A stretch of 64,000 bases of DNA from Ceratodon purpureus (lineage: Eukaryota; Streptophyta; Bryopsida; Pseudoditrichales; Ditrichaceae): contig CM026427.1 of NCBI GenBank assembly GCA_014871385.1, forward strand, positions 14,034,430 to 14,098,429, written 5' to 3'. Under the pieces are notes generated by a model. That model ran no database searches, had not been told where the DNA came from, and saw nothing but the letters and a program-made list of their open reading frames with translations. Every line of letters starts with the position of its first letter. The first letter of the stretch is position 1. Positions 11,271 through 37,041 of this stretch are shown piece after piece. Made by a program: the position numbers and the translations under genes.

Positions 11271-11360
11271 AAATACACATCTAAGGTATTTTAAATACAC
11301 ATCTAAGGTCTTTTAAATACACATCTAAGGTATTTTAAATACACATCTAAAACACACATC
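11271..11360 (+). repeat. 22-bp tandem repeat, four copies
   Basis: AAATACACATCTAAGGTATTTT repeats at 11271, 11293, 11315 and 11337 with one or two changes per unit. Confidence 0.85.
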
Positions 11361-12300: not shown

Positions 12301-13075
12301 AATGTACGGCACCTCTAGATATCATCATTTTGCAGAGAGCAGAGGGACACCGGACAGGCAGTCATAAACCCCATCCCCATCCCGCGGGAGTACACTCCAA
12401 GCTCCAAATACAAGAGGAGCCCGTACCCGGGGGCGCGGCAGTAGGGCAGAGCAGAGCAGCGTAGAGTAGAGTAGAGTACAGAGTGGGGGGGAGTCTCCCG
12501 CGCAACTCAGACGCACTTTGCGAATATTGCACCACCTCCCTCGCAATGGCCAGCCGGCCATAGCCACCACCACCACCACCACCCCACTCACAGCCCCAGC
12601 AGCAGCAAGCAGCAGCACAGCCCAAGGACACACCCTCCTCCATTTCCCGCTCACTCCCATTCCTTCCCTTGAAGCGATTCGAACCCCACTCTTCTCGGAC
12701 TCACAGGTGGGATCTAATCGCCATTGCAAGCACTTCAATTCGCTGCCACTTTGAGACCGAAATCCATCTAATTTTCGTGGTTGAGTGTCGCCATCGCAAC
12801 GCGGAGAATATCAATAGCTATCAATATCAACGCGGTGTAGTGAGTGTCGTGCTGTTCAAGTTGTTGAGAGCCTCTTTGAATTCAGAGAGGCATTAAGGGT
12901 ACCGGTGGTTTTTATGGAGTGTTGAGTTATTGTGTTCTGCAATAGGATTTTGATTTCGGTCTACTCTTTTTGTTTAGGGCTTTGAAAGCAAGTGTATAGG
13001 TGTGTCTCGGTGGGAGGGTGAGTAGGGAGTGGGAGGCTTGTTTCAGAAGGTTTGGTTTGGGAGGTGGAGGAGGGG

Positions 13076-13083
13076 TATATAAG
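13076..13083 (+). promoter_or_regulatory. TATA box, possible promoter of BAH-PHD gene
   Basis: TATATAAG in a GC-rich region, 284 bp upstream of the first in-frame ATG (13367). The DNA between is strongly G-rich on the plus strand (many GGGG runs, 13,010-13,330). It would be the 5' leader. Confidence 0.4.
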
Positions 13084-13366
13084 TGGAGGTTTTGGGGTGT
13101 ATTGAGAGGTGGGTTTTGGAGGAGGTTTTTCTGGGTGTGAGGAGCGTTTTTGTGGTGTTTGGGGAATTTGGGGGAGTGAATTGGGGGAGTTTGTTGGTGT
13201 TTGGGGTGGAGAGGTGATAGAGGTGGGTTTGGGAGGGCAGAGTGTGGGATCGGTTGCGTGAGAGGTGAAGGAGGGGGACTAGGGTTAGGGCGCGGAGGTG
13301 ACCGTTGAGCTGCTGAGCTTCTCGCAGGGGTTAAGATTTTTGGGTTTGGGTCTGAGGGGTGTTACG

Positions 13367-15056: not shown

Positions 15057-16459
15057 TCTTACCGCAAGTTTGGGCCCATCGAGTGGCTCGAACAGTATCT
15101 TATTTGGCTCATCCCCTCAGTCGTTAAAAGATGTGTGAAGTTGATGTAGATATGGGAATAGATGAAAATTTGTAAGATAGTGGGTTGACTACCTTGGTGG
15201 GCTTCTACATTGTTTCCCTCAATACGGAGCTGTGTACCAGGAACCACTCAAAGTATTTATTCAAATACACGAGTTGGGGCTGTTCCAATTAAGCAGTCCA
15301 AGGACTTTCCTTACGCTGTCTCAGGGTAGCGTAGCTCATAAATGCTGAACAAGAGCCTATTCCACGTCGATATCTGTGATGTCCCTTGGATGAAATGACC
15401 CTGTAGCTCATGTCACAGTTTCTCCAGCAAGACCCGTTTTTCCCCCCTCTATTGCAGGTTAATAGACATAGCAAGACATTTTGGTCAGTTGAGCAACTCG
15501 AATCTGGCGTTGGTTGTAAAGTGTTCTCATCATTGATGTGTACTTTCCTCAAAATATCCAACGTGGCTCATAGTTTTACTATGGGCGCCTTTGTTTACTG
15601 CTTGCAGCTTGAGTTTGTGCAGTTCCTTGATGGCTTCTTCGGGTTTCCCTTTCTTCTTTATCTTTTGGTTTTAGAGCTAGAATTCCATTTTGAGGATCAT
15701 GAACGAGCAAATCGTGGTACAACGTGGAGAAAGGTGAACAACACACGCCAGCATACGAAGCGGAAACTGATATGTTTGAGATCATATTAGGCTGTATTGC
15801 CAGAGTTCCACCTGGTTCAACTTATGTTGAACGTAGGTCAGCTGGGATTCAACATCAGAACGACTATTTTTGCAGAGTTGAATAGTTAGCAACCACTGCA
15901 GGCAATTGGTTATGACAGCCATTCAATATTTTTTCTTCACTAGTTTTTTGTTTTTTTTGAAACAACTGGAACTTTATTCCACTGGATTAAGTGAAAAACA
16001 AAGTGCCACCGAAAAGTCAAGCAGGCAACAAATAACCAACTTTCTTCACTAGTTTCAAGTCGTGGATAATTCTATATTAGTCATTCTTTATTAAATTTTA
16101 GTGGTGAATAATTGAACAAAATTGCATACAGTAAGGGCCTCCAGTGAGCATCCTGAGTCCCGACTGCCTCTTTGTACAGTGCTATCATGGAGTTGAAGTG
16201 TACCGGAGTCTGTCTTCATGAATGCTCATCTTTAGGAACTCATTGTTTATGTTGTGATCATTGTAGCTTGCATTCAGGATTTTATGTTTTATGATGTTCC
16301 CCAGGCGCTGAGGATTACAGGAAAGTTATCCTTGAACAATTTTAGGAACACATTAGACAAGAATTGAATCAATTAACAATATCATGTTAAAATTTTATAA
16401 ATTCATTACTTCATTTAAATTTCAGAAGTAACAAAAATGACTAGATGTAAATTATATCA
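15057..16459. other. 3' region of BAH-PHD gene and intergenic DNA
   Basis: Contains the presumed 3' UTR. The 126-codon frame at 15410-15790 overlaps antisense frames and has no recognisable motif, so it was not called. Confidence 0.45.
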
Positions 16460-17431: not shown

Positions 17432-17440
17432 GAGATAGTG
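17432..17440 (+). repeat. MULE target-site duplication, left
   Basis: GAGATAGTG directly precedes the left terminal inverted repeat. The identical 9 bases directly follow the right one (37033-37041). Nine bases is the usual MULE target duplication. Confidence 0.96.
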
Positions 17441-17792
17441 GGAGAAGGCTAAATGCCATGTAGTGAAGGATAAGGCGGGAGCAGCGCGCCGTGCGCGCCC
17501 CCGTGGCGCGCCACGTCAAACGCCCGGTTTCCACCTAAAGCAGCCGTCGCGGGTAATTACCGGCTACAGTGATTACTTCGTTTTGTGACACAGAGCTTGT
17601 GACTCTGAACCCCGTGACACAACCATATCCTCGTGACACCAACAGTGAGACACTGATGTTTGTAACACTGCCCGTTGAAAAAAACATTGTGACGCTGGCA
17701 TGACGTCAGCCCTCGTCTCCATCAGTTCTACCGGGTTAGGGTTTTCGTGTTTCAGTGTCTCCGAGGCTCAGCACCGAAGCTCCGCTCCGTCT
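17441..17792 (+). repeat. MULE terminal inverted repeat, left (352 bp)
   Basis: Begins GGAGAAGGCTAAATGCC and ends ..GCTCCGTCT. It includes a GC-rich stretch with the palindrome GTGGCGCGCCAC, three copies of GTGACAC (17585, 17614, 17633) and a telo-box-like GGGTTAGGGTTTT near the inner end. One difference from the right copy was seen: GGGAGCAGCGCG here versus GGGAGCGGCGCG. Confidence 0.96.
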
Positions 17793-18070
17793 CATAGTGA
17801 GGAATGTACGTTTAGGGTTTTCTTTTAGCGACGGTTCTTTGTGCTATTTCTTCAATCGGTTTAGGTCTCAGATCTGTGGTTGTTTCAATTTGTTCTCCTT
17901 GATGTGAGCAATGTCACATGCAACAGTTGTGTGCGTTTACGGTTTAGGGTTATTGTAAACTTACGATAATGGAGTTGCATCGTGTTCTAAACAGTACAGT
18001 TTCTATGTATCTCTCGCTACCTATGTCCTTCTGATTGCACTTCCCATTTGAATCGACGCATTTGAGCAAC

Positions 18071-21000
18071 ATGGAGGGATTTTGCAATGGACAGCCCGAA
18101 CAGAAACCCATCATTGACGATGATATGGGTGTTGAGGTGGATCTCTCCCAATTTGACATTCACGCACTCCAGCTCCAACAGATTGAGGACCTAGTTCAGG
18201 AACCACCCCCGGGTGTTTTCGGTGCTCGTGACCTAAGATGGGAGCTAGAGTATCGGCCTCCCCGAGGGGAACACAAGAAGTCACACCTGGTTCAGCAGTG
18301 TTACATTCCAACAAGCCGAGTAGGCGATTTCGTAGATGGTATGCAATGTGGGCGAGAAGGGACACAATGTAGGTTCAGGGCGAATAAAGAGAACCGGAAG
18401 CCGAATCTACGCCGAGATGGACCGCGGACGCCTCTATCCTTCACTAGGTATGGTTTAGGGATTCCTTCGTAATGCATGTATTGTTGTATTGTTGCATCTA
18501 GGGAGGTGTGGTTCACAGATAAATCTATGTACAATATCACAAGCACTGGGTACTACATGCTGTGCCGGGTGTCATGTTCCATCCCGATTGATCTAAAAGA
18601 TGTGGTCGACAATTCTCCAATGGCAGTTTTTGTTTCTCGTCGTTAAGGGTTAAAGTCATATGAATTTATGGCCTGCATTGTTTTCTGATTATTGAGCGCA
18701 GGTACAAATGTGAATATGGGCCCAAGGATTACTCCCGTATCGTGAAACCAATCACTGAGGACCTCCTCCCTAAGGAGAGGAAGAAGCACCGTATTCCAGA
18801 TTCAATTCCAGAAGGGAACATGTTGGCACCGACTAGGAAGGCAAGGGCGAAACGGGCTCCCAAGAGTGAAGCACGCAAGGCACCACGGAAGTTCAAGTCC
18901 AGACCTGGAGGAGTAGAGGTAGACGCCATGGACTGGATGCTTCAAGATCCAGTCGTTCCACCTAAGATGCGGGTGAGTAGGAAGAAGAAGGGAGTTGTTG
19001 GAGACGGTGTCACAGCACTTGATCCTACTGAAGGGCATGCTGGGTGCATTCCGGACCTGAATGAGGTTCCCGCTGTGGAAGATCCAGTTCTGGATTCGGC
19101 AAATGTCACTAAGAAACGAGCTCCTCGAAAGAAGAAACTGCCCGTGGACTCCGAGGGATTCACGTTAGAACAGTCGGGCGAACTTCCAGCAAAAGAGAAG
19201 AAAAAGCGAGCGCCCAGGAAGAAGAAACCGGCCGCGGACTCCGATGGATCAACGATAGAACAGTCGACCGAACATCCACAAAAAGAGAAGAAAAAACGAG
19301 CGCCTAGGAAGAAGAAACCTCCCGTGGACTCTGATGGATCATCGATAGAACAGTCGTGCAAACTTCCACCAAAAGAGAAGAAAAAACGAGCGCCTAGGAA
19401 GAAAAAATCAGATGCCACTCACGAACAGGTAGCATGTCTGGTATCATCGGACCACATACCAGCGGAGTCCGTTGTCATGGATCTGAACCAATCCTCTTCT
19501 ATGGCCGGTTCTACACCTGTCATAAATAAAACGACCACAACTTCACCAAAGTGTGGTTGTAGGAAGATGAAGGGGTGTGAAACACCAGTGGTACAGTGTC
19601 ACGCTCCACTGCCAACAGTTCTGGATCAGTGTACTGGCAGCGGAACTTACTGTTCCCCGGTGACAGACAATGCGAAGTCTTCTTGCTGTTCGGCATCAAT
19701 AGATGAAGATAACGCCACTGCGTCTGTGAACAATGGAGACTGTTGTGAGTTATCAGAACTACTCTCCGCGCTTGGTGATATTACGGAGTCCTGTATGGAT
19801 TTTCCAGAAATTGAGAGTGGACCTTCAGATGACGGGGAGGTTGTGGATACTGTGGCTCCCAAGGTAGAAGTACACACAAGTGGGGGTTCACCGAAACCAA
19901 ACAACGTGAAGAAGCCACCTCGAAAGTCTCGGGATTCTAAGAAGAAATGGGGATCGTCCATTAAGAGGGGCTGTTTGGCGCAATTTACTGTGAAGTCGCT
20001 GTTGTACCTCCCTCATGTCTCCGAGATTTGTATCATTCAAGAGAAACATGTGAATAGCGATGGCCTCGTGGTTCATGGAGGGATGAAAATTGGAGATCGA
20101 AGTGCCTTCTCAGCTCATCTGTCCCCTGAAATCAGATCGTTTGTGGAGGAATGCTTGAGGCGGAAGGACACACCGAACCAGATCATGAGGAAGCATCTGG
20201 ACTTGCTGAAACAATGGGAAGCGGAAGGGAAAGATCTGACTAGGGATTTATTGCTGACAACGAAAGATATCCGTAATATCTCTGGGAAGCTTGCCCAAGA
20301 GACATATATGTTACACAAAAACGACGCCCAAAGTGTACGGATGTGGGTGCAGAGAAATCCTGAGAAGATTTTCTATTACTCTGAATCAAACAAGGAAAAG
20401 GCCAAACCAGTTGAAGGTGAATTGACAGGGGAAAATATGCCTTTCACTATCGGGATCCAAACGCCATGGCAGGCCAAGATGATGCTTAAGCACGGTCATT
20501 CGGGTGGAATTTCTGTTGACGCCACATTCGGTACTAATGAGAAGAAGGTACTCATCAGATTCAAACTCCCCTTTTTTTTTTCCGTTTCTTACATTCGATA
20601 CTGTGACATTGTGACACTGGTCAGGACTGACCTCACTGTTCAAACCGTGTGTAAATTGTCTTCGCAGTTCCCATTGTATACGCTAATGGTTTTCGACGAA
20701 TGGCACAACGGAATTCCTGTTGCATTCATTCTCACCTCTAGATGTGCTGAAGCGGATTTAACTCCGTGGATGGCCGCCTTAAACGAGAAAATGGTGGGGA
20801 TAAAACCAGAATGGAAACCCGCAGCCTTCATCGTGGACTGTGCGCAGGGCGAGATTAATGCCATCAAGTATGTGATCCCCCTTCACGTAGAATTTAGTCC
20901 AATCTATTAGTTATGGATATATGTCATTCCTGAAATGTATCCTCCTAATGAAACTGTTATTTTATTCTATGTGTACAGCAAAACATGGCCTAAGACAGAG

Positions 21001-22134
21001 ATATTCCTGTGCCTATGGCACGTACGTAGAGCGTGGCAGAAGAATGCGTGTTACAAAATCTCTGATTTGAAAATGAGAGCCGTCATAATGAAGGAGCTCG
21101 GCATGTTGATGTATGATAGGAGTGCTCCACCTGGACCGGAAGGTAGGGAATGGGCTGAGAATAAAATCTTAGAGTTGGAAAAGAGGTACCCAAAGGAAGT
21201 GGAATTCTGGGAATATATGAAATTTCAGTGGCTTGATAAGGTGCATATGTGGGTAGTTGGATTTCGAAATCTATCGTACTGTGGACAAGACACTAATGCG
21301 GCCATAGAGGGTTATCACGGGTTTGCGAAGTCGATACTGAAGTCTGAGAGGAGTAGAATGACTGGTAGAAGGGTTGATTGGTGCATTACAGCTCTAACAG
21401 AAGACGTTGTAGACCATTACTGGTACAAGTGGTTACGTAAAGAAAAAGGGTTCGTTGACAATAAGAAAGGTCAGGATATCGTGGTCTCATCTATCCTTCG
21501 AGCCAGGAAAATTCCAGACGAAGATGTGACACTGCCAGAACATGATGGTGACACTGCCCTTGTGACATCCACTCAACATCGTCATCTCCGTTACACTGTC
21601 CATAATCCGGGTTCAGAATGGGCAGTCTGTAACTGCGTCTGGGCGCAGCGTGGGAATATGTGTAAACACCACGTCAAAGTGGTCATGATGATGAACCCGG
21701 ATGTCGCGGAAGGAACAATTGCTAGGTTCTGTGGCAGGTTGGCTGGCAGTGTCACAGGTGGACTGCATCAGCTTCTCACGCCCCAGAGGGTTCAAATGCC
21801 GAACATGTCACAGTCAGAGACACCTTTTTCGGCTCCGAGACCCACCCCACAAACGAGGAATGCTGAAGACCCCGCTGAACGCTTGCGGCTTCAAGTGATT
21901 GAATTACACGAGGAAGTAGACGGTGACTCCGTAATGATGGAGCACCTAATAGCTGAGTTGAATAGAACGCTGGGTCGTATCCGGAAGATTAAAGCCGAGC
22001 TGAAGCATGGTTCTCTGCATCCGCTTGCTGAGTCACCAGTGTTACAGGTTGTAGACGACGGTCAAGGATTCAAGCTAGGTCGCAATAAGGACTTCCTTGA
22101 GAGGTCGTTCAATCCTGTTTCACGACGGTTATAG
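18071..22134 (+). CDS. MULE transposase (DDE, SWIM zinc finger)
   Basis: Four exons with phase-consistent GT-AG junctions: 18071-18447, 18702-20547, 20668-20867, 20979-22134. They encode 1,192 residues. The N-terminal part has Cys-rich patches. Residues about 263-361 hold four basic KKRAPRKKK units at 30-residue spacing, probably nuclear localisation or DNA contacts. The catalytic core has D732 (SVDATFGTN), D798 (IVDCAQGE), the C/H motif CLWH and E918 (NAAIEGYHG), the usual DDE arrangement of MULE transposases. A SWIM finger follows: C1025-x-C and C1036-x-H (CNCVWAQRGNMCKHH). The enzyme should cut and paste the element by binding its TIRs. No frameshift or missing catalytic residue was found. 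Intron 2 (20548-20667, 120 nt) is open in frame. GTGACAC motifs lie inside its exons. Confidence 0.94.
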
Positions 22135-22313
22135 GTACGATACGTAAGAATATCCTGTTTCATCCAACCAGTGAATAGTAGCGCTGTTAAGAGACGTCAA
22201 CCACACTCTTCGGTGATGGTTACTTTGTTTCTAGTCGTGTCCTATAGTCGCTCATTCTAGTTTGACAGTGCTCCATCTCCAGAGCTGGTCATTCTCATTT
22301 TCGATCCGTCAGC

Positions 22314-22736
22314 ATGTATATTAGTTTCCGTGTCGTTGTTGATGGTTTAGGGGATTGGCTCTTACTTTCTTTGTTCACCTTATCGATATGCCTGTTGCTC
22401 AAGTTCTGCGTCTCTCCGGTGGCAGGGCATAGTCAGTCGATAGGTGAACGTGGGCGAGCCAAGAGGGCGGGCAGTAGATGCTTCCGCGTGAGGGTTGACC
22501 AGGCGTCCAACCAGAGACGGAATGTGCGGTCGAGGCGGCGCTCTAAGGATGTCGACCCATCGGATTTTGAGACCAATGTTGCTGGACGGCAGAGTTGCAG
22601 AGAACGTCATTTTCTAACCCTTCCTAAAACGGAAAGCGGGTCAGACAGTGAAGAGATGCGATGGGTTATGAAGAATTTCTACTCTGCCATGGGTGAGGAG
22701 GAAGACCATAACATAAGCTGTTATAGTCGCAGTTAG
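22314..22736 (+). CDS. Possible small ORF of the MULE left arm
   Basis: A 140-codon frame downstream of the transposase. It begins with a hydrophobic stretch (about residues 15-35), followed by a basic region (RRNVRSRRRSKD) and an acidic end (SGSDSEE, GEEED). I do not recognise it. It may be a separate short gene, a 3' exon or chance. No strong promoter signal was seen. Confidence 0.25.
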   Translation: MYISFRVVVDGLGDWLLLSLFTLSICLLLKFCVSPVAGHSQSIGERGRAKRAGSRCFRVRVDQASNQRRNVRSRRRSKDVDPSDFETNVAGRQSCRERHFLTLPKTESGSDSEEMRWVMKNFYSAMGEEEDHNISCYSRS

Positions 22737-23218
22737 TGATTACGAGTCTGCGCAGATGGGTATATATCTTCCTGAGTCGCCCCTACGTTTATTGACGACT
22801 TAGCATACGTTGGAGTGGAACAGTTAGAACTGACGATGTCCGTGGACGAAGTGTATGGCTTCGGCTAATTTTTGGCCACGCGTGTGCTAATGGAATAAAT
22901 GTTTATAATATGTTCATCGTTATCAAATTGTATGTTCAATGCTTGCCTTCACTTATGTGTTACACTGTGACACTGTCGAACTGCTTTCACTGTACCTACG
23001 GTATAGTCTAATCATCACCTCCAATGTGTCCGAGACTACATCTTCCTTTGCTCAATTAAGAGAATTACTCAGTACTTACATAAGAATCGTACGCTCGTCA
23101 TTATTTGCGGTTGCGAACCATAACTATATTTGATTTAGGGTTCATACTTCCGGACGTGAACAAGTTCCCAGAGGAGAAGAACGTGAACGTACTCAATACA
23201 TCGACGCCCTCTGCTCTG

Positions 23219-23225
23219 TATATAA
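23219..23225 (+). promoter_or_regulatory. TATA box upstream of small MULE gene
   Basis: TATATAA in the context CTCTGTATATAAGGGAG, 111 bp upstream of the ATG at 23336. It is a classical plant core promoter position if a short leader is assumed. Confidence 0.55.
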
Positions 23226-23335
23226 GGGAGAAACTCTTTGTCTCATAAACTCTCTTTCAATCTCTTTTTTGAGCTTCCATTTTCTAGGCTGTGTTTTTCG
23301 TTAGGACTGTTCTCGTTTCAGACTCTAAAGTAGGT

Positions 23336-23734
23336 ATGGATGCGTTAGAATCAGAAGTACTGGACTTCTTAGCAACTATGGCAGACTATGTAGAGGCACC
23401 TCTCCGGAAAACGCATATCTCCCTTCCGTCCTCCAACTGTATCGGCGTGCCTGCGCAAAATGATCGAATTTATCTTCCACCTCTGTCATTAGTCCGTGGC
23501 CATGTGAAGCGTAAGCGGACTGTACCCTTAGGTGTTAATACGAAGGCTCCGGAAAGGAAGAGGGTCATTCTCTTCCCCGACAGTGGACACTTCCAGGGAG
23601 TACACTGTTCTACTACTTACGTATCCCTACTGCAAGGGCATTCCAAGTGGGAGAAATCGACATGTGACACTAAGAGACTTCAGTGTGGTTGCAACTCTGT
23701 GGTTTCTTGTACCCACAGCAGCTCGCAGTTTTGA
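23336..23734 (+). CDS. Small basic protein of MULE, unknown function
   Basis: 132 residues from ATG 23336 (MDALESEVLDFLATM). The start resembles an amphipathic helix. A basic segment follows (HVKRKRTVPL and PERKRV), compatible with nuclear localisation. The C-terminal third is cysteine-rich (CSTT, CDTK, CGCNS, CTHS) and may be read-through of an intron or 3' region. It has its own TATA box and a GTGACAC copy within the frame (23664), and a cluster of the motif follows at 23,835-23,877. No family is recognised. By position it could be an accessory or regulatory protein of the element, or the first exon of a longer gene. Confidence 0.4.
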   Translation: MDALESEVLDFLATMADYVEAPLRKTHISLPSSNCIGVPAQNDRIYLPPLSLVRGHVKRKRTVPLGVNTKAPERKRVILFPDSGHFQGVHCSTTYVSLLQGHSKWEKSTCDTKRLQCGCNSVVSCTHSSSQF

Positions 23735-23834
23735 ACTTAAGGCAATTAGTTGTATGTCGTGGTACGTTCAGTAATGCAGGTGTAGAAGCGTCTTACATTA
23801 TGACAGTAGCCATAAAGTGTTAAGTCATTACAGT

Positions 23835-23877
23835 GTGACACTATCCATCATGTGTTACACTGTGACACTGTGACAGT
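23835..23877 (+). repeat. GTGACAC motif cluster, left side of cargo
   Basis: GTGTGACACTATCC, GTGTTACACTG, TGTGACACTGTGACAG in close succession. Exact GTGACAC occurs at 23835 and 23862. The cluster marks the inner edge of the left gene arm. No further exact copy occurs until 30,397. Confidence 0.8.
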
Positions 23878-24599
23878 CTGTACGAGAGTTACTGAATCAA
23901 TAAATGATTCACTCGAGACTGTATTCAGACGATACAGAGTTTTATGTTCTTATGTCTACAATTTTATACTAGTTTTAATGAAGAATTAAAGTAATAAATT
24001 CGCATTATACTCCATCTTTGCAAGTTAATTTGCCATTGTTTTTATCTTCTTATAGGTTTTGCTACAGAACTTGACGATTTTATATTCTATGTTTTCCAAT
24101 TTCTTTCTTATCTGATGGACTTGTCTTCAGTATGGTATCGATTACATTTTTAGTACACATATCCCCGCGAGATTACAGTATTAGTACAAATATCCTCGCT
24201 AATTTGTATTTCAAAACACATGTAAAAACTTTGTACGTAACGCACTACTTTGGAAACAAATTATATTAATCCCTACCCATTACTACGATGTACTTCTATC
24301 CTACAGTACACCATGTAATAAAAATAAAAATAAATAATTTAGAGTTTAATTAGGTGAGTGGACTGAAATGCAATTAATTTTTTATAAACAATTTCCATGT
24401 CGTTTACATTTCGTTTATATAATTTCTTTAAAAACAGGGACAGAGTAATATACCATAAAAGAATTTGGAAATATTAAATGCAACCATTATTTAGCCATTG
24501 ATATTTATATATGTATATTTATATATATATATTTAGCCATTGATATTTATATATGTATATTTATATATATATATTTAGCCATTGATATTTATATATGTA

Positions 24600-24660
<61 letters not shown>

Positions 24661-27295
24661 GTATATATATACTTGTTCCTTCTTATGGATTTATACATGT
24701 CTAAATTGAACATGTGATTAGTACATTTCAGCATTATAGTATTTCGTGGTTTTTGTGTCCTTGCAAATATTATTTACAGATAACTCTTATTTGTTAATTT
24801 TTTTCCCCCCATAAGGGTATGTACTGCTTGAACACGGACAAAACATATTGATCAATTTCTGATGATATATCTTCTCTAATTTTTCTTCTTTCAGGAGATG
24901 TTATTGTCTTCTCATTTCTATGTATTTGCTTCAAGGATATTTATAAAATAATACTGAAAGATAGTAAAAAATTTAATTGTCAGTATCCCTCTGTTTTTAA
25001 CATAGTTTGCAAATGTTCAGAGTATGCATGCCCCAGATATATGTTTTACATAAAGCATAACAATGAATATTTCGACTACTAAGCATATTATTGATATTAA
25101 TAAATTTACAGTATGATGTATGCCATGTCCTTAATTACACTAGACTTTAAGATGTGCAATTCACTGATTGAATTGTTCATTTCAATATTGCAAAACTTGG
25201 TATATCATAGACACATCCATATCCTGTTTGTGGAGTTCACACATGAAAATATTATTATAAATATTTATAAACTACTTTTATTGTAAAAATTATAATATAA
25301 AGGTATATTCTTATAAAAGACACAAACTTTCCATTCTTATAATTTTGACTATATATTTGAATTTTTATTATTCTATTACGTATAAAGTATGTCTTGGATA
25401 TTAAAGCTTGGACAAATTCATGGTCATGTTACGTACTTTCTAAGAAAACGGAAAAACTTAATTGAATTTAGAAAATTAGAAAATTACTTATTTTAATTTA
25501 ATTGTTTAAATTTTTTTTATCATTATACTCAATTCATGAAAGAAAACCGGTTATACTTTTATGCCCACTTCCTTACTTTCTGTACCCTGATTTTCATTGT
25601 TTATTATTATCAATACTTATACTTATTTATTTTTTATTTATGTGTTTCTATTTTTTTGAATTAGTACTATGTTTTGTTTTCATTTACTTATTTCTGAAGT
25701 TAAAATTGTAGGGAAGCAATTCTCTTTATATGTCAGTACTCTTTTGGTTTTTTATCATGGTAGATGAATTCCTTAATTTTATTTATCCTAGTTATATATT
25801 TGTTTAGGAAGTGAATAGTAGGTGCTTATCAATAACTTGGTATTTAGTGGGTGATTAGTTGGGGGGTTAGTGGTACAATGATGACTGCAGAGTAATGATA
25901 AGGGAGGGAGTGGGGGGTTAGGGGTAAGTGTTGACGGCGGAGTACTAATGAGGGATGGAGTGGGGGGTTCAATGCGTTGGATGGAAGTTGGGGGGGAGCG
26001 AGGAAAGAAGGCGGGGAGCGTGGGTTTGAATCTCAGGACTTCTTTCTTGGTATGCCTCGTTGGGCTGTGGTGCGTAAGCTTTGTTGTCTTTAAGGTTTCA
26101 GAGGGACTCTCTTGCTAACGTCCACTGCCCTGCGCATCAGGTTCGCTCGCAGTTACATGATCGCGATGTCTTGTTTCCGGTTTTCTGTTTACTGCAGTCG
26201 GCCAATATGGTTTGGAAGACCTTGTTCTCGGTGTTGCTGTGCTGTGATGTTGTGGAGAGATGAGTTCGTATCTGGAGCGTGCGAGGCTTTATGTGTTTCT
26301 CGTTTTCCTGGAGAGTTCGTGGTGTTGTTGTTGTTGGAGAGGAACTGGCCTGCTAGAGTCGAGACTCTCAATGTAATCATTAGTATTTGATTACTTCGTG
26401 TTTCCTAGGCGCTTGAGATGAATGTTGTGCTGGTTTTCATGACAGCGGCACCCGGTGCGTGCGTACGTGTGTGCAGGAGTCGACCTAAGATTCACCTCGT
26501 CGTGCACCTGACCTTCCGTCTGTCGTGCTGTGGGAGTGGTGGAGCTCTTTGACACTGGACTCCGGATGGTTGACAAGCACCTCGACTTCCTGTTGGCGTA
26601 GACAGCGGTGAGCCTGATACTGGTGTTGGGCATGCATTTCGGATGTTTTTTATGTGAGCTGAGTGTCTGTGAGGTGCTTTCGGAGATCGTGTTGACAGTG
26701 TTGGCTCGGGACCACTCTGATTGAGGAGAGACAACCTTCGTTCTTGGGTCACAAGCGTTCTTGGGTCTCAGCTTCAGCAACCGGGACAGTGAGCTTTTTC
26801 AAGTGAGCTTTTTCAACGAGTATGAAGTATGAAGTTTACACTTTCATGAAGTATGAAGTTTATACAACTCAGGTTTGGATGGCTAGGGTTTAGGGTTTAA
26901 GGGATGGTAATGCTGGGATGGAGCGATCGTTAGTTTTGATTTCTGAATGCGTTTCGTTTGTTGCGAGATTTCAGGCCTGTCGCAGTGCGCGCAGAGGTGC
27001 GCTAGGCATGCGTGTTCGCCGCTAGCGAATGACAAGTTTACTTGCGTTGCGGCGACTGAACCAGTTCCGGGTTGCAACAATTCGTGCGGGGGGATACAAT
27101 TGGACTTCGGAGGGAGTGGATTTGTAAGGTTATTCTCTGCTTCTACTACGAGAAGAAATGGTAGAAAGCGGAATGTGCCATGGAGTTGAAGCTACCACCC
27201 GATCGGAGAGATGAGCCCTAAATCCCACCCTCATACTCTGTTTTCTAGAGCTAGCTTCCATGAAATAAGCACATGGTGTTGGATTTCAATCATGC
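23878..27295. other. AT-rich then mixed cargo of the MULE, origin unknown
   Basis: 23.9-25.8 kb is extremely AT-rich. 25.85-27.2 kb is GC-richer, with G-runs (TGGGGGGTTAG repeated near 25,860-25,970) and several short frames on both strands. None is recognisable, but the base composition suggests another captured genomic piece. A frame near 26,950-27,190 is cysteine-rich and unassigned. No exact GTGACAC motif was seen. Confidence 0.45.
24489..24690 (+). repeat. 42-bp tandem repeat (x3) running into a TA microsatellite
   Basis: ATTTAGCCATTGATATTTAT starts at 24489, 24531 and 24573, a 42-bp period. It is followed by a long (TA)n tract to about 24,670. This is slippage-prone DNA inside the MULE cargo. 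Confidence 0.9.
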
Positions 27296-27297
27296 AG

Positions 27298-27799
27298 GCA
27301 CAGGAGTCATGGTACACAGCATTCACCAGCTCAGATCTGTGACGGACAATTTCGCGGAGAGCAATGTGCTCGGTCAAGGCGGCTTTAGGGTCCTGTACAA
27401 GGGCGTCCTCGCCGACGGCACCAAGATTGACGTCAAGAGGATACAACTGGCGGTGGTGAGCAGCAAGGGGCTTAGTGAGCTCCGATCTGATATTGCGATA
27501 TTGACCAAGGTGAAGCACCGGCACTTGGTGGCCCTCCTGGGCTACTGCACTGATGGCGTTGAGCGACTCCTTGTGTACGAGTACATGTCGCAAGGCCCCC
27601 TGGCGCAGCATCTGTTCAAGTACGAGGAGATGACCGGGAAGCCTCTCTCGTGGACGATGAGGTTGGAAAAATGCGCTTGGGCGTTGTCCAAGCGGTGGAG
27701 TATCTGCACGGTTTGACGCATCTGAGCTTCGTACACCGCGATCTGAAACATTCGAATGTACTTCTGAACGATGACTTCCGAGCGAAGAACTGTAAATGG
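27298..27799 (+). pseudogene. Captured receptor-like kinase fragment (TMK-like)
   Basis: A fragment starting after an intron-like acceptor (CATGCAG) encodes kinase subdomains I to VIb: [39 protein letters not shown] and, after one frameshift near 27,670, [18 protein letters not shown]. The wording is that of TMK-type receptor kinases. It is inactive: the glycine loop has Arg for Gly (GGFRVLY), the invariant Ala before the ATP lysine is Asp (KIDVKR), the frame is shifted, and homology stops after the catalytic loop near 27,790. There is no upstream receptor part and no kinase C-lobe. It lies inside the MULE and is best read as a captured host fragment in decay. Confidence 0.82.
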
Positions 27800-27856
27800 C
27801 CTTATAAAACTCTTAATTAGATCAGCATCATGAGCTGTTGCATTTTTTGTGAACAG

Positions 27857-28451
27857 GATGGCAAGACCGTGTTGGCAGATGATGTGCTCCCTGATGGAAC
27901 AGTGGTGAAGAAGGGTAACATAGTGCAATATGTGCCATACTCCATGGCAAGGATGCCTTTCTTGTGGGGTTCCGATGCGCAGGAACTCAAACCAGAGAGA
28001 TGGCTGAAGGACGGTGTGTTTCAGAGTGTTTCTCCGTTTAAATTCACTACCTTTCAGGTACTGAAGCTAATCTTCTCATTTTCCATCATTGTCATAGATT
28101 TACAAAAGCACTAGGGTGCGATGCTTCAGACTGTGGATTAGGAAATTGAAGGTTTGGTTTCCAGTGCGCTGCAAGAATAATCACTCAGACTCTGTCTAGA
28201 TTTGGTAGTAAAATTGATGGATTGACATGGGATACGCATTGTTACAGGCGGGGCCTCGTATCTGCTTGGGACGAGATTCTGCTTACTTGCAGTTGAAGGT
28301 TACCCTAGCGCTCATCATTCATTTCTTCACCTTCCAGTTGGTACCCGGACAAGAAATAACTTACACTTCCTCGTTGGTCATTGCAGAACGTACTTCTGGA
28401 CAAGTAGGTTTACTTTGGACGAGCTTGGTGATTCAAGAGCCCAATTTTTAG
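27857..28451 (+). pseudogene. Captured P450 C-terminal fragment (CYP704/CYP86-like)
   Basis: Two exons with intact splice borders, 27857-28057 and 28248-28451. They encode the last third of a cytochrome P450: the DDVLPDGTVVKKG stretch, ARMPFLWGSDA, the PERW motif, then the heme-binding AGPRICLGRD with its axial cysteine, and the terminal strands up to a stop. This wording matches fatty-acid hydroxylases of the CYP86/CYP704 clan. An acceptor (TGTGAACAG) precedes the first exon, so genomic DNA with introns was captured, not mRNA. The I-helix, ExxR and N-terminal anchor are absent, so no enzyme can be made. It follows the kinase fragment in the same orientation by about 60 bp, as in Pack-MULEs. 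Confidence 0.87.
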
Positions 28452-28851
28452 TATTACCTTCAAAAAACAAATCATTCATTCTTACATCGGGATTTGTGTT
28501 GATCTGATGCAATCTCATAATGTGCGAACGAGATTGCTAATTCTGTGAATAATACAGATGGCAGATCACGAAAGGAAAGCGGATGTTTTGACAAGTTCAT
28601 GCGACACTTGCTGTAAGCTTCAATCTTCTAATTGCACAAAATCTACTCTTAGGATTTCGATCGGCCTTGGCACAGTATTATATTTGCACTGACTTAGAAG
28701 ACAAAGCACCTCGTCAGAATCGTTATATAGCTGCCTATGCTTGTGAAAGTTGTGTTGCATAGTGGAATGAATTGTATGAGCGGACAGTGTGTTGAATATC
28801 ATTGCATTTGTAAGTTTTGTTTTGGAGTTGTTAACCACTATTTTATTTATG

Positions 28852-28893
28852 TAAATGTAAATGTAAATGTAAATGTAAATGTGAATGTGAATG
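28852..28893 (+). repeat. Hexanucleotide microsatellite (AAATGT)n
   Basis: Seven or more units of GTAAAT/GTGAAT in tandem. The Asn-Val repeat in the overlapping short frame is a by-product. Confidence 0.9.
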
Positions 28894-28969
28894 TAGTGAG
28901 TTCTTTAGCACAATGTAAATGTAATTTTTGTTTTATTATAAACATTGTAATTTATTAAAATCCAGAGGG

Positions 28970-29315
28970 GACTCGGTTGGTGGTTTATCTTCCTAAAGTT
29001 GATAAGCCGGATTCCTGATGTCCTCTAAATAATTTAAATAATTATTTTAATTTTATAGAACTCGCATGGTGGATTGTTTTCCCGAAAGGGTTAATTCTTC
29101 GGATTGTTGATGTTCAATTTAATTCCCTATTTAATAAAATCTAAAATAATATGAAGAACTCGGTTGGTGGCTTATTTTTCCGAAAGGTTAATAAGTTGGA
29201 TTCCTGATGTTCTTCTTTAAATCATGAAAAATATTAATTTAAAATTTTTGGAGAACTCGTTTGGTGGATTATCTTCTTGAGAGGGTTGATTATCCGGATT
29301 TCTGATGTTCTCTTT
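28970..29315 (+). repeat. Four diverged ~95-bp tandem repeats
   Basis: Units start near 28970, 29058, 29156 and 29252, each with ACTCGGTTGGTGG, a TTATCTTCC..AAAGG middle, a TAAGCCGGATTCCTGATGT block and an AT spacer. In units 1 and 3 the middle can fold (GGTTTATC with GATAAGCC; CTTATT with AATAAG). Their function is unknown. They lie in the MULE cargo. Confidence 0.8.
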
Positions 29316-30396
29316 AATATAAAAAATCTAATAAAAATTTAACTAAATGTATATATAGTAGATGTTTCCTTTTTTTAATATGATTTTTTATTTTCATGAA
29401 ATTTTAAATTTGTTTGATACAGGATGGCAGACCAAAACAGTTGTTGAATATATCGTTTTCATCATATGATTTTGGATTTGTATGTGGACTATAAACATTC
29501 CATTTCATGTGCATAATGGTATTTTTCTTTTACCTAGATTATTCTTTAAACATTTTGAATATTTTTTTACCTCAATGAATGTAAACTCTTATATTATATG
29601 AACCTTCATTATATGTTTAACATAGTAGATTTATAAAGAAAGGCCGTGCCCCAATATACTCCGAACTCATAACAACTGTCCATGACTGGCTCCGTTTACA
29701 TTCTAGAAATTTGATCTGTTGCATGATTTCTTTTTTATTTTTGATTTTTGTTTAGACCATTGAAAAATCATAAGATTCTGTTTCTGTTTCATTGAATATA
29801 GAATAGTTATTATCATCTGTTGATGGATTTTTTGAATTGAATCTCTTAAATTTTAAATGAATATTTGCTTCTTGAGTTGATTTTCCCAGTGATCCTGGAA
29901 AACTATGAAGGACTGAAGTTCTTTGGAGTATGATTTTTCGTTGACTAATTTGGAAAGGTTCTCACAGGTTTTCTTTTTTGCCTTTTGTCAATTTTTTACA
30001 GATGAAACTAATTTGTTTTTTTCAAGCAAGACTTCTCTTAAGTACAATATATTGAAATAGCCATAAAAGAGAAATCTAATCAACGTTTGTTTGTTTGTTT
30101 GTTTGTGTTTTTTTTTTTAAAAAAAAAAAAAGAGAATATAAAAAATAAAAATAAAAATCATATAGAGCTTCTTTGTTTTTCTGTACCCCTTATTGTAGGA
30201 GGTAGTTTTTTTAGTAGATTAGATCAAATTTGAAAACAACGTATAGTCGAGGGTATAGATCGAGGGTATAGATCGAAGAAACGGGTGTGCGATTTAATGG
30301 TATTCTTCATAACAAAGACAGCCAGAATACAACATACTTCCCGTTCATTGTAACACTGGGAAACAGATAAATTATGAAGACTCTTCATGCAATCCT
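29316..30396. other. AT-rich cargo, nothing recognised
   Basis: AT-rich spacer with poly-T/poly-A runs near 30,090-30,150, including a TTTG microsatellite. No coding frame seen. Confidence 0.5.
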
Positions 30397-30576
30397 GTGT
30401 CACTAGTATCACTAGTGTTAGCAGTATCAACTGTGTCACCAGTATCACCAGTATGAACAATGTTCACCAGTGTCACCAGTATCAACAGTGTTAACCAGTG
30501 TCACCAATATCAGCAATGTCACCAGTGTCACCTGTGTCACCACTGCCAGCAATGTCACCAGTGTCACCAGTGTCAC
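30397..30576 (+). repeat. GTGTCACCAGT array, right side of cargo
   Basis: About eight exact GTGTCAC copies plus many near copies (AGTATCACC, AATGTCACC) in 180 bp, at roughly 9-bp multiples. The array lies just beyond the stop of the Ulp1 gene and mirrors the cluster at 23,835-23,877 on the other side of the cargo. Confidence 0.9.
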
Positions 30577-30773
30577 CCGCGAGAGGACAAGGAAAACACT
30601 TGGACAAATCACAGAAGACATTCAACGGAGCATACTCCCATTTCGGAACATAGTATACACTCAGAGATAATGACAGTGTGTGGAATAAAAAAAATTGAAG
30701 AGTACAGTCTGTGACTTCGTACAGAAACAGTGAACGTTTGCTATACACAACAGTGGCACTATGCACAGAAGTT

Positions 30774-33700
30774 CTAAACCCAGGAATCTAACAGCACCAT
30801 ATCTCCGTCTGGCTCTACGTCTTTCTCTAACACATTCGCGACTACGCAAAGCGGTGGTCTGTATCTAGTATCCCGCCTTCTGAAGTCAAGTTCTCTTGCC
30901 AGGAGTGTCAGAATCTCGAGACTGGTATCCTTAGGTTTGAACGGCTCCATTAGTGCCGCGGCCAAGCTCTCCTCCCTGTCCACACTCAGATGCCCTCGAA
31001 ACTGCACATGAAGTTCAACACTGACTGTGACATTACGTAAGAAAAAGTTTGAATGGAAATATGGGACTATAAGCTGTACACAGTTCGAAAACAGTCGATA
31101 AAAGTGAATGCCACGTACCTTCAAATACAGCATAGCATTGCGTAGAGTATGATGACCACACTCGTAAGTCCCCTTCTGATGGAAAACACTCTGAGAGACT
31201 ACGGGGACATCGTACAACTCCACTCCTCTAAGAGTCTGCCAAGAATGACTAATGACATTAACAAAATCAGCATGTTTCTTCCCTGGAACATGCAATTCAC
31301 TATCCGGAAATGAGTCAAAGTGAAGGACTCTATCGTATTGAAACACAAGTAGAGACCAATGATTGGCCGTAACCCAAGGGAGGAGTAATTCCTTCACTTG
31401 ATATATCCGAACAGGTGAAGGAGGCTGAAGAAAAACGGACGCCCACTTCTTCAAAGTTGTCCTGCCTTTGGCCACTGTCATATAGCAACTGGATACCCGG
31501 GACGTGAGGAACTGAATCTCGTGGCGACTGCGAGCCGGGTATTGATAATACATTCGTGACAGTGTAAAATCAACAATGTCGTTGCCGAGACGAGTGCGAA
31601 GACGCTTCAAATCGCGAATGTTGGAAAATTTCACCTCTATCTCTTTACGCGACTCGTTGTAAAAAACAACTACATCCGCGGGGTCCTTCTTTCCTTCCTT
31701 CCGGGGAGTTTCCGTAATAAGTCCTCAATATTGAGAGAAGTATAGGCCTGTGCCAATGTCAAAACTCCAATTTCCCCAACCTGAATTAGACACAAGTCCG
31801 GCAATGAATGAGCCCCCCTCTTCAAAACCTCATTCTTCGTAAGATATCTGGATCGTGTGGCAGGTTTCCTCATCGGGCCCACAGCAGTATCACGTTCAGC
31901 AGCCTGGGACAGGTTCACCAACTGAGACACCGCTTCAAGGTCTTCTTCGTCTTCAAAGCTCTGGGCAAGGTTCCTGCAAGTCGTAGCTTCATCAGCAAAT
32001 CCAAGATGCCCACTGTCTTGCCCCGCAACAATGGACACCCCTTTATAAGGGGTTTGTACATGATTCTGTACATCATCTCTTACCCACTGATGAAAGCTAG
32101 GGTCTTGTGAAAACGTGCCATTTTCAACTACGACGTCCTGACCTGCATGGGCACTGTTATTAAACTGACTTAGCGTAAGTAACGGTGCCGCACCTGGGGA
32201 CACTATGTCCTCGTCCAGAATTTTGTCGATCTCCGGAAATACAGCCTGCGTTGAACTCACCCCGGTAGAATGTAAGTCTACAACGACGGGGGTAATTATT
32301 TTACCTTTTTCGCGAACGAAGTCAACTATAGCCTTCTGATCTCGCTTGAACTCCAGCATCGCCTCATGCCCTGGCTCATCGGGTACTGAAATCTCGCTTT
32401 GAGACAGGTTAGCGTTCATAGCAGATGTTGTTTGAAGTTCAGAGTTGCCGCCGGTCACACAAGGCACAACAGGGTTACAGAGCGCTGTCTCAGTAGAGTC
32501 TCCGGAGTCACATCTGTCAACACCGTCTGCTATATCTTTTATCACTGCTGCGATTACAGAGTCATTGTCGTCGGTCAGTGTCACAAGGTCTGTGACACTG
32601 ACTCCTGGTTCGGCTCCATCATGCACCTCAGTGTCACAGTCTCCTGACCCTAAACCACCGGACACCCCGATCTCCTCAACTGCAATTTCTCCTTCGGCAG
32701 TAGTATCAGTCGTGGTAACAATGTCCGTCACTATAACCGTATCTTCTAATCTCTCATCGTGACCAGAATCACAACCGGATGGCATCGCCTTCGACGCATT
32801 CTGTACATCATAACCTTGGCCGGCTTCTGAATCACTGAGTAAGGGTTCTGTAGAAGTCGCAGAGTCGGGCACTCGCATATCACGGGTACAGTCCCCCCAA
32901 TGCTTCTCATCCTCCTCGCGGATTAGGTTGGTCATAGTGTGAACATTGTCCTGGAGTTTGAGTCGCAACTCGGACACAAGGGGGTTCGTGCTTGTAATAC
33001 AACCGCCCATAATCCACCCAACATCTCGCTCCTCTCGAACTCTAAGTGTTGATCGCCAATTGGAATAGTGTTCCGCCCAGAGATTAGGGTCTGTGGTAGT
33101 CCAGGCCTCTTGAAACTGCTCTGGGTGACATACCGCAAAATCCTGCAACGCTCTCAATTGCACCAATCGTACCCAAGCAACCAAATTCGATACTATGTCG
33201 TCGCCCAATCCGGAGTTCACTAGCTGGATTTCCGAAAACACCGATTCCCTAAACGCTGCATCTTTCACATCCACCGACAACGTCGCAAATAAAGAAGGTC
33301 CTTCCAAAATCAGCATGGACAGCGCCTTCATCACGTCCTCCAGCTCCAGACATTCACTTCTAAATATGTGGCTTGTAATCCCGTAAAAGGGACATGTGAA
33401 CTGACGAAAAATCCCGTGTTTGTTCCTGAAGAGAATCCGCATAATATACACAAAATGCGAAGGAGGTCGTGGGTTCACCCGCGATTCATAGAGAATGCGT
33501 CGCACCTCCTGAGCCTCGCTTACTGCGACGGAATGAAGAGAACACGATAACAGGGTATCAGTCGTACGAAAGTGGAACACCCTTAAACCTAAAAAGTCAC
33601 GACAATAAAGCTTAGAGCGAAAAAAAATGAGAATGTGAAACAAAATTAGAGCAGAAATATTTACCGTCGTGCACCCAAGGCAAGGATGGCAACTTCTGCA

Positions 33701-36121
33701 TTATTCCCTCGTCCGTTGTAAGAATCTGCCACAGGGGACACCAGTGCCATACAGATGCCTCTCTTAACTTCCCATTCTTACGGCGGAATTGGATAATCGC
33801 GGACTCCAACATGTCGTCGCGTTTCCTTACGATGTCGACCCGGTACGCAGCAAGTGCTAGTTCGTAATTAGAATAATCCTGTGTCCACTGAATGTATTGA
33901 CGGAGGCATTCCAGGTCTTTGTAAACAGTGCCCTCTTCCACAGAAAAAACTAATCCGTCAATGGCAACTGAAACTGCTTCAATTACATCAGCAGGTAGAG
34001 GTGCTTTCCTATCCCCCTGAATATCAGATTCTCTTGTTAGTTTGGATGTGACCTTATGCGCCAGTGTCACTCAGCCGTTAAATGGTCACTGAATTCAGAA
34101 AAGGTCAAAAAACTAATGAACAGCGCAAGCAGGAATCGATTACTCACCTTTCTACAAGTCCACCAGTACACGCAACGCATGAGCTTCAGTTTGAAATCTG
34201 TACACATTAGGGAAAGCTCCCATTTCTCTACAAACTTATCTCCACTGCTGCACTCCCACGTCCATGGCAGATCAACCTCCGCCCCTATCTCCTTCAGATA
34301 GTACAATCCAGGCATGCGTGGCTTCAACGGACAGACGGGAGGGGGAATCTGGACCTGTAGGCTTTCCTCCGACGGGCAATTCTTCTCGATGTACTCGTCT
34401 TCAGCTCTCTTAAAATCCGCGAGCCCTCTTTGGTGAGCCACCTCGACATCGGGATGAAACGATAGAGGATGAGGTGTGCCCATCCCATCCGCCCAGAATT
34501 GTCGGAGTTTGGCATTCCTACTCCAGCCGTCACTTTTAGGGATAGCGGCGTATGTAGGGTCCTCTGAGATCGCAGGTGTAGATGGGCCTGTAGGAATCAC
34601 TGATACAACGTCTAGGGCGCTTCCTGTAACATTGTCACAACCTGTGTGACACTGTGACTCTACCCCGACAGTCAGCTTTCCTGAAGAGATTCCCACCTGT
34701 GGCCAACATACACAATCCAGAGTTAAGTGGAGAACTTCCGAATTGTAGGAATTCAAGAGAAAGGAATTAAACCTGTACATTTAATGTCACGAGAAGTAAC
34801 TAACCTCAGAAGTAGAATTTGTTGTGGATCTAGGTAATTTAAGTTTCCGATGCAGCAGAGGATCCCGGACAAAGACCTTGAACGTTTCCAAGTCGTCGTC
34901 GCTACATGCTTTTCGCTTCAACGTATCCCTCCCGACACCATCTGCTCCATCACCGCTGACCTCTGGCTCTTGTGCCAAATTCGTGTCGCAAAATATTGGG
35001 CTAGAGATGCCCTCTGTTGACAACATCCCTCCTTTACGATGTGGCGATAAGTCGAGAGCCGCCATTTTCTCTACAGCCCGGACCTGCGGTGAGACATCTC
35101 TGGAACCCTTCTTCTCATCTGCCGAAGTAACCCGAGGACTCCGTCGAGTCTCAGTTGTGCTATTCTTCTTGCTGATATTGACACCACTTCCCGCATTAAG
35201 CGTCGGGGATTCCCTGTTAGCACAGTCCTTCCCTACGAGTACTTTGGGTTTTTTCCCTGTAATCTTCTTTGCCTTCTGTATCTCAACTCCCTCAACCTGC
35301 GCGACCGTGGGCTTTTCAGTACCTGCTAACCGTGTGGCGGATGCACTTCCTATCCGCACTGCTGGTCCCTTGAAGAGAAAATCCTGTGGAATACTACAAC
35401 CCGTACGTGGAAAAGTATGTGGCTCAGTATGGGAACTCCCTTTCACCTCAGTCGCCTTCTCGCAATCCTCCGCTGTGACTAAATCTGCCTCGAAATCGTC
35501 ACAGTCATCCCCGTCCACACCAAGGTCGTCATCTGCTCCATCTTCGGAATTGCCATGCGGTTTATCGTGGCTCTTCAAAACCGCGACTGACTTCCCTAGG
35601 ACCTCCACCTTCTTCCCCTCTCCCGTCCTGAAATCCGGATACGGAAGCAGCAGGGCTTTCTTTCCATCCGGATACCTGGCTTCATCACACCCTTCAATAA
35701 ATCTGTGCTTGTTAAGCATCATTTTGTTAGAGTAGTGATTCTTACCACAGTATATGCAGAGGAAGAACTTGCGATTGCCACATGGTTTCACTCCCCCTTT
35801 AGCCATGGTTGCAAACTCTTTCTTGAGATCCTCCACTCGTTGCTGGCTGGGATACGTAACGTTGTAAGTTTGCTTGTAAATCTTCACCCTCAATGTCACA
35901 GGTTGAGGAGCCATTTCTTCAGCACTGCAGGGGACGGACATTTCTCCACACGTAGGGCAGTCCGTATCAGAAAAACTAATGTACCTGAATTTGTTTTGTA
36001 GCCCCACTACGCGCCCACAGCCTCCTAGACACCGCACAGAACTGTAATACCAATCCGCTTCTTCGTAATTCACTTGGTCCCTGGAACAACAGTGGGAGGA
36101 TGTGTTAGTCTCCTCAAGCAT
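30774..36121 (-). CDS. MULE-encoded zinc-finger protein with Ulp1 protease domain
   Basis: Five minus-strand exons join in phase: 36121-34805, 34696-34148, 34052-33665, 33588-31781, 31697-30774, giving 1,661 residues. The N-terminus has a ribbon-like Cys set (C31, C35, C55, C58) and a C2HC finger (C122-x2-C125, H139, C145). The middle is acidic and Ser/Thr-rich. The C-terminus is a C48 (Ulp1/SENP) peptidase fold with H1467 (NHWSLLV), D1482 (HFDSF), Q1528 and C1534 (TYECGHHTL); the Gln-x5-Cys spacing is as in yeast Ulp1. Such proteases remove SUMO or related modifiers. In plant MULEs their role is unproven, perhaps anti-silencing. The last intron (31780-31698, 83 nt) is inferred because it alone restores frame. 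Separate genes cannot be excluded. GTGTCAC motifs lie inside exon 4. Confidence 0.85.
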
Positions 36122-36680
36122 CAAATAGGGTTAGCCGAATAAACTGTATCCGAAGGTCGCGAAAACATCAAGAAGGAAGACATTCTGAATTGCGCAATTC
36201 AAAGACTCCTCGAAATCAATCCGCGGAACAACCTAGGAATACTCCAGAAAAACAGTCCGGTGTTACTGGGCTTCACAGGCTTCACCGTGCGTAGACAGCG
36301 CCTGTTCTTGCGAACGCGTGACTCACTCCCCATCACCGAAGGAATTGCTAACCACAAAGGAAGAAACAGAGGGGCTCCGTAAACTTACCGGCATTGTGCC
36401 CATCACGTAACCCCCTTCATGTTGTAGTCAGTTGCGGGAGCATAACTTGAATGCGCCATTGGAACCCTAAACCCCAATGTATCAAGTCCTTGCCCGCCAA
36501 CCCTTCATTGCACAATTAAATCGAGTCTCGACGTACAAGGTAAACAATCACATGGAAGGTACAATCATCACCTCTATTAAATTTCGTGATAGCGACCTTC
36601 AAATCGCCACAAACCCTAAACATTATCAATGCGACATAGCCCCTGCGCTAATACAATATGACCCGAAAACATTGCATAGA

Positions 36681-37032
36681 AGACGGAGCGGAGCTTCGGT
36701 GCTGAGCCTCGGAGACACTGAAACACGAAAACCCTAACCCGGTAGAACTGATGGAGACGAGGGCTGACGTCATGCCAGCGTCACAATGTTTTTTTCAACG
36801 GGCAGTGTTACAAACATCAGTGTCTCACTGTTGGTGTCACGAGGATATGGTTGTGTCACGGGGTTCAGAGTCACAAGCTCTGTGTCACAAAACGAAGTAA
36901 TCACTGTAGCCGGTAATTACCCGCGACGGCTGCTTTAGGTGGAAACCGGGCGTTTGACGTGGCGCGCCACGGGGGCGCGCACGGCGCGCCGCTCCCGCCT
37001 TATCCTTCACTACATGGCATTTAGCCTTCTCC
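36681..37032 (-). repeat. MULE terminal inverted repeat, right (352 bp)
   Basis: The reverse complement of 17441-17792 over the full 352 bp, with a single difference found by eye. It includes GTGTCAC at 36834, 36853 and 36882. It ends ..TTAGCCTTCTCC next to the target duplication. Confidence 0.96.
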
Positions 37033-37041
37033 GAGATAGTG
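37033..37041 (+). repeat. MULE target-site duplication, right
   Basis: GAGATAGTG, identical to 17432-17440. The sequence after it (TCGCGTTAAGG..) is the presumed upstream/leader region of CSN8. Confidence 0.96.

Follow-up and report, generated by a model that had tools for sequence, protein, structure and literature searches.

What role might a short DNA word play when a transposable element of a moss carries it along most of its length and the surrounding DNA does not? The question is raised by a stretch of 64,000 nucleotides from Ceratodon purpureus (C7:14034430–14098429, hereafter the window; its own numbering is used below), part of a genome of 362,488,568 bases in 151 contigs. Positions 17441–37032 are a complete Mutator-like element (MULE), as its ends, its target site duplication (TSD) and its copies elsewhere show. 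The 9-mer GTGACACTG is found exactly 17 times in this element, where 0.18 occurrences are expected, and not once in the 44.4 kb of flanking DNA; it is the top over-represented dispersed 9-mer. With one mismatch allowed the element has 53 sites, the flanks 2. This dispersed word, of which the initial annotation made no mention, is to our minds the most interesting feature of the element. We favour, at a little short of an even chance and by analogy, the reading that the element recognizes itself by this word, which would most probably serve as a VANC-like anti-silencing address read by the protein of the element's second, or partner, gene.

The exact sites are distributed over introns, a tandem block and both coding sequences; the copies in the terminal inverted repeats (TIRs) are all inexact. 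On the side of the transposase gene they include 20611–20619 (plus strand) and sites starting at 19594, 21526, 21548, 21747, 22967 and 23862. Five more (starts 30468, 30496, 30523, 30559 and 30568) belong to the tandem block, an array of the word with a 9-bp unit located downstream of the partner stop codon (30390–30577, minus strand), and the partner side has those starting at 32576, 32592, 32629, 34062 and 34646. Expressed as sites per kb at no more than one mismatch, the density is 46 in the tandem block, 17 in the TIRs, 2.95 in the left arm and 1.64 in the right arm, as against 0.16 in the variable middle of the element (the cargo, 24493–30252) and 0–0.07 in the flanks. A T precedes GTGACACTG in 28 of 36 sites.

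Neither base composition nor codon usage accounts for the word, both being ruled out by Markov draws, by codon shuffles and by splitting the element into parts. The dispersal statistic of the word is 30.6, exceeding the highest values obtained from 60 Markov draws (11.7) and from windows of the flanking DNA (14.8). The coding and noncoding portions of the element, analyzed separately, have the identical top 9-mer. Within the coding sequences eight exact sites are present against 0.70 in synonymous-codon shuffles, a number reached in none of 1000. These coding sites occupy three frames and both strands, and because of this any selection upon them would presumably act on the DNA. In our judgement the retention of a DNA word at the codon level within a transposon's own exons is unusual.

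The word persists in the relatives of the element. A genome search with the TIR gave 41 matches. Eleven whole elements were compared (the one in the window, along with eight close and two divergent copies); five further places were represented by a single 10-kb stretch each. In all eleven elements the top dispersed 9-mer is the word or its neighbour shifted by one base, and this is also true of three out of three further 10-kb stretches, in which Ulp1 identity is 65, 60 and 51%. Enrichment of the word is thereby seen in relatives with Ulp1 domains 51–83% identical. Among 8-mers a GC-rich cargo repeat heads the list in the C10 copy, and in the stretches L036 and L037 the first place is taken by shifted forms of the word. 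The 8-mer GTGACACT is in excess in the long open frames of each of the seven elements or stretches tested (0/500 shuffles in every case). It has no exact site in the cargo of the window element, nor have the copies C12, C10 and C3a in theirs, and the arms of each contain 18–19.

The positions of the sites appear to turn over in the partner gene and to be retained in part in the transposase gene. None of the three partner-gene sites of C12 coincides with a site in L033, L034 or L035, although these have three to four sites each in the aligned part. The whole genome contains 29 cases in which two copies of TGTGACACTG are no more than 30 bp apart, and 22 of these pairs are situated no more than 10 kb from a scored Ulp1 exon, a zone covering at most 0.83% of the genome, related copies not being independent. 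Two of the remaining seven were inspected; both fall within family members, one possessing a 51% identical Ulp1 domain and the other a transposase and a Ulp1 remnant.

How might such a word be used? The transposase would move the element and leave 9-bp duplications, a step backed by the structure of the element and by its copies. TGTGACACTG is written repeatedly into TIRs, untranslated regions, introns and exons, and would be the self-recognition word of the family. Its reader would presumably be one of the element's own proteins, the likeliest being the partner, whose zinc-finger-like N-terminal domain could bind TGTGACACTG. The Ulp1-like protease of the partner might then act on SUMO-type marks of silencing proteins, with the outcome that the whole element would become accessible for expression, in the way that VANC acts on VANDAL. 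The host DNA captured in the middle is without the word. Anti-silencing is suggested because VANC21 reads an arrayed word in its own element and because some VANC genes carry Ulp1. VANC21 of the VANDAL21 element is described as binding a 9-base word arrayed along that element and removing methylation (PMC5735166), so that in Arabidopsis VANDALs a transposon protein is described as countering silencing sequence-specifically, through a word of its own; the Ulp1 domains of some VANC genes are noted in a review. The moss word agrees with the VANC21 word YAGTATTAY in seven of nine places, but since that level is attained by about 1% of random 9-mers this likeness may serve as a lead and not as a test. 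One might go further and propose that mosses have a system of their own for anti-silencing, or for telling self from non-self, which is distinct from VANC or predates it. In such a system a Ulp1-zinc-finger protein of a TIR-bearing MULE would read a fixed 10-bp word preserved by the family during the divergence of its remaining sequence, selection would write that word into exons, the arms would be marked as self and the cargo and flanks would not, and removal of SUMO would be the effector step. We consider this possible, if on the unlikely side.

Several results weigh against an anti-silencing address read by the partner. In the noncoding sequence taken without the tandem block and with a single TIR, the word is found four times against 0.07, and it loses its top rank. 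For the partner gene alone, at one mismatch, there are 8 sites against 3.6, and 17 of 1000 shuffles reach that number. In L036 the shifted word CGTGACAC outranks GTGACACT. One of three partner-gene sites coincides between C12 and C6_94; in the 3' exon of the transposase gene 3, 2, 2 and 1 of three sites coincide with those of C6_94, L033, L034 and C6_24 respectively, and in an earlier transposase exon the only word site (1/1) coincides with one of C6_94. Such shared positions mean that descent or protein constraint explains a part of the pattern. Searching the genome with the reversed pattern as a control for the TGTGACACTG pairs gave 52 matches against 29, although this is a poor and non-independent control because the string also arises in head-to-tail arrays of the word. 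Partner exons 1–4 had no Pfam match at E ≤ 10, DUF1985 and DUF287 included, in a search where the HMMER filters drop most weak matches. Lastly, VANDAL elements have degenerate TIRs, where those of the moss element are 352 bp with one mismatch, and their words are mainly noncoding and vary between families, whereas the moss word is conserved and is also found in exons.

Alternatively the word might be the binding site of the transposase itself, with the internal copies being extra or acting as decoys and the partner having some other task. In favour of this, 12 of the 53 sites (at no more than one mismatch) are crowded into the two TIRs, at about 17 per kb, and long Mutator TIRs are described as containing transposase binding sites (PMC3310237). 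The transposase N-terminus (residues 1–125) is, moreover, 68% identical in one distant family member. Exact GTGACACTG, however, is absent from the TIRs, the densest block is internal, genes and 3' regions account for the majority of the sites, and recognition of the ends would not need sites held in exons against synonymous drift; we think this explanation unlikely, while giving it more weight than the two that follow. It is improbable that the reader comes from the host, as a transcription factor or chromatin protein recruited for expression or replication. In favour of such a factor, many inexact sites are found in the TIRs and one in the leaders, and the word includes TGAC/TGTCA, a core recognized by plant TALE homeodomain proteins. 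Against it, exons and the DNA downstream of genes often contain sites, and not a single exact one is present in 44.4 kb of flanks holding at least four host-type genes.

Least probable of all, in our estimation, is that the enrichment has no function and merely results from slippage during replication, from gene conversion or from common descent. One block is indeed nothing more than a 9-bp unit repeated in tandem, some coding positions are common to relatives, and the arms of the sibling copies are mostly 93–99% identical, which means that counts from siblings are not independent. Yet outside the tandem block 36 sites conserve only the word and the preceding T, the relatives keep the density of the word partly at different positions, and the coding sites exceed the shuffles in 7/7 cases tested. 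An address read by the partner remains the reading that we prefer, at the strength given above.

The partner gene (30774–36121, minus strand; predicted exons 36121–34805, 34696–34148, 34016–33665, 33522–31119 and 31001–30774) is convergent to the transposase gene and encodes a protein with a zinc-finger-like N-terminus and a Ulp1-like C-terminus. The initial annotation had described it as encoding zinc fingers plus a Ulp1 domain with all four catalytic positions. The zinc-finger-like domain (35552–36088, minus strand), our candidate for the DNA reader, is conserved; its structure model has a predicted local distance difference test (pLDDT) value of 42.5 and is unusable. The Ulp1/C48-like domain (31119–31697, minus strand) possesses H113, D128, Q174 and C180, invariant in six of six aligned sequences; the His-Asp-Gln-Cys set of Ulp1 (C48) proteases is kept down to 51% identity, which argues for selection on this domain as a working protease. 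The score of the window partner against Pfam C48 is 17.3 bits (E 0.0043), below the curated cut-off of 20.7, and four of the six aligned sequences match C48 at E ≤ 1, the best at 3.3e-4. The single-sequence structure model of the domain (pLDDT 33) is too uncertain to tell whether the fold is papain-like, and searching PDB sequences with the domain yielded chance-level matches only, mostly antibodies.

The claim that the element contains two long intact genes holds for the transposase, with its 1,192 open codons, and fails for the partner. The reading frame of the latter shifts within a purine run near 31,690; the stretch containing this run is 58 bases long in the window copy and 59 in eight of eight siblings. 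The open frame across it is 975 amino acids in five of the eight siblings, 520, 520 and 481 in the others, and 316 in the window. This frameshift is either a mutation in the window copy or an assembly error. An intron restoring the frame, which 106 of the introns modelled would do, is rejected, the siblings being open at this point without one.

The element has 352-bp TIRs (left, 17441–17792, plus strand; right, 36681–37032, minus strand). They had been reported to differ by a single base, and on re-measurement one mismatch was indeed counted. In the left TIR the word occurs six times with one mismatch and never exactly. The 9-bp TSD GAGATAGTG was also correctly recognized as perfect, being present on either side (17432–17440 and 37033–37041). 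Long TIRs and a TSD within the 8–11 bp range of MULEs are thus both found in this element, which is best explained as a member of a young, autonomous-type, TIR-bearing MULE family of the moss. Near its inner end (17700–17760, and mirrored on the right) each TIR contains one TGACGTCA site and one GGGTTAGGGTTTT stretch, which may belong to the promoters of the two convergent genes.

Perfect 9-bp TSDs accompany 10/11 elements, eight of them found by script (the window element and seven siblings) and the rest from inspected ends. Among the latter, C6_94 has a perfect 9-bp TSD and so has C6_81, there with one end base altered; no TSD was seen at the ends of C6_24. These duplications exclude two insertions joined by misassembly. 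The existence of the family likewise disposes of the possibility, allowed for in the initial annotation, that the genome would hold no other copy. Recent movement had been proposed as well and is borne out by two copies, C3a (C3:2728274–2749302) and C3b (C3:3148336–3169364), which are identical over 21,029 bases and are 420 kb apart, with differing TSDs and flanks. Because they are identical yet at different sites, a very recent transposition is strongly supported, unless the pair is an assembly artefact; it is possibly a very recent local hop. The two TIRs of an element differ by one to five substitutions in the window, C12, C10, C3a, C3b, C6_27 and C6_70, those of C6_70 and both C3 copies differing also by gaps, and the TIRs of C6_57 are heavily disrupted.

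The insertion lies beside two gene starts. The start codon of a gene of the CSN8/PSMD8/EIF3K family (37186; PF10075, E 8.6e-9) is 145 bp past the end of the right TSD, and on the opposite strand a gene with a C2 domain (PF00168, E 7.5e-14) starts at 17038, approximately 400 bp from the left end of the element. Insertion into 5' regions, as seen here, is typical of Mutator elements. A BAH-PHD gene of the EBS/SHL type is located farther left in the window. Rfam and tRNA scans gave no matches, and none was obtained in viral and prokaryote sequence collections.

The transposase gene (18071–22134, plus strand) is predicted to consist of four exons (18071–18447, 18702–20547, 20668–20867 and 20979–22134) separated by three GT-AG introns, and has no internal stop codon. 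Its product is a MULE-type DDE transposase, since it matches the MULE domain of Pfam (PF10551) with 49.4 bits (E 6.3e-13), well over the cut-off of 27.6. The pairing of this gene with an Ulp1-bearing partner on the opposite strand had been correctly described. Residues that we take to be the DDE set and a SWIM-like CxC..CxH were read off the translation. A 90-bp tandem repeat in the coding sequence (19114–19407, plus strand) specifies a basic, lysine/arginine-rich repeat of 30 amino acids; repeated peptides are likewise described in the variable regions of VANC (PMC5735166). A PDB sequence search with the transposase returned no matches, nor did an NCBIfam search.

The cargo is mostly present in C12, C10, C3a and C3b. 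By blastn it is unmatched in C6_27, C6_57, C6_70 and C6_81, save for an AT-rich repeat at its left edge. It includes a protein kinase gene fragment (27264–27713, plus strand; PF07714, E 1.1e-11), the frame of which is broken downstream, and a truncated cytochrome P450 gene fragment retaining an apparent intron (27821–28406, plus strand; PF00067, E 1.8e-6 for 27821–28111, the second piece being read outside that match). The 588 bp at 27789–28376, comprising most of the P450 fragment, are missing in C12 and C10 and unmatched in C3a and C3b. Since the 3' end of the fragment is still present in C12 and C10, this difference is probably a deletion in the siblings. C10 contains a 4.8-kb insert (element bases 10361–15168), largely GC-rich with GGCGACGGC-like repeats, which is unmatched in the window copy and from which the word is absent. 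A degenerate tandem array with a period of about 195 bp is also found in the cargo (28971–29318).

This middle resembles the capture of host gene fragments (here kinase and P450, one with its apparent intron) by Pack-MULEs, in an element which, unlike those, keeps its own transposase gene. MuDR of maize, a parallel for two convergent genes, has each of these genes starting beside a long TIR and a 9-bp TSD, and is about four times smaller than the moss element. The latter differs from it in having an Ulp1-like partner and in carrying cargo. The two MuDR genes are mudrA and mudrB (PMC6446971). A C48/Ulp1-like gene opposite the transposase is described for Kaonashi (KI/KIU) and for ULP1 MULEs of melon, rice and grapevine. 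The KI-MULEs are described as non-TIR elements of angiosperms, with melon ULP genes occurring in TIR-MULEs as well. The moss element shares their reverse orientation of the Ulp1 gene and is likened to them via the Ulp1 domain alone; it bears TIRs and its partner has a zinc-finger-like N-terminal domain, so that it is not a Kaonashi element. With VANDAL21 (Hiun) and its VANC21 in Arabidopsis it shares a dense, element-specific 9-base word repeated along a MULE, partly in tandem. It is not a VANDAL, however, because its TIRs are long, no VANC domain was detected in its partner, and its word is conserved, being kept down to 51% Ulp1-domain identity, and is present in exons.

Ulp1-bearing MULEs were known already, as were transposons that carry an address word. 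According to a review, capture of Ulp1 by non-TIR MULEs dates to the monocot-eudicot split, and its function there is called unknown. What seems new is a TIR-bearing moss family which combines the two, with a conserved word inside its exons; a literature search of open-licence PubMed Central articles gave no paper on such a moss element among the matches listed. With its long TIRs, Ulp1-like partner, identical fresh copies and conserved word, this family offers a new system for direct tests of Ulp1 function, and the word is a simple handle for finding its members. A genome search with the Ulp1 exon gave 150 scored matches (its own included) out of 389 candidates, down to 51% identity. Ninety-seven of the 150 are on C6 (110,524,308 bases), where 45.7 would be expected from its share of the genome. 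The sex chromosomes of Ceratodon purpureus are given as 110.5 Mb for U and 112.2 Mb for V (PMC9273592), and C6, by its matching size, appears to be a moss sex chromosome. The excess of Ulp1 exons ties the family to this apparent sex chromosome, which the element family may have helped to enlarge.

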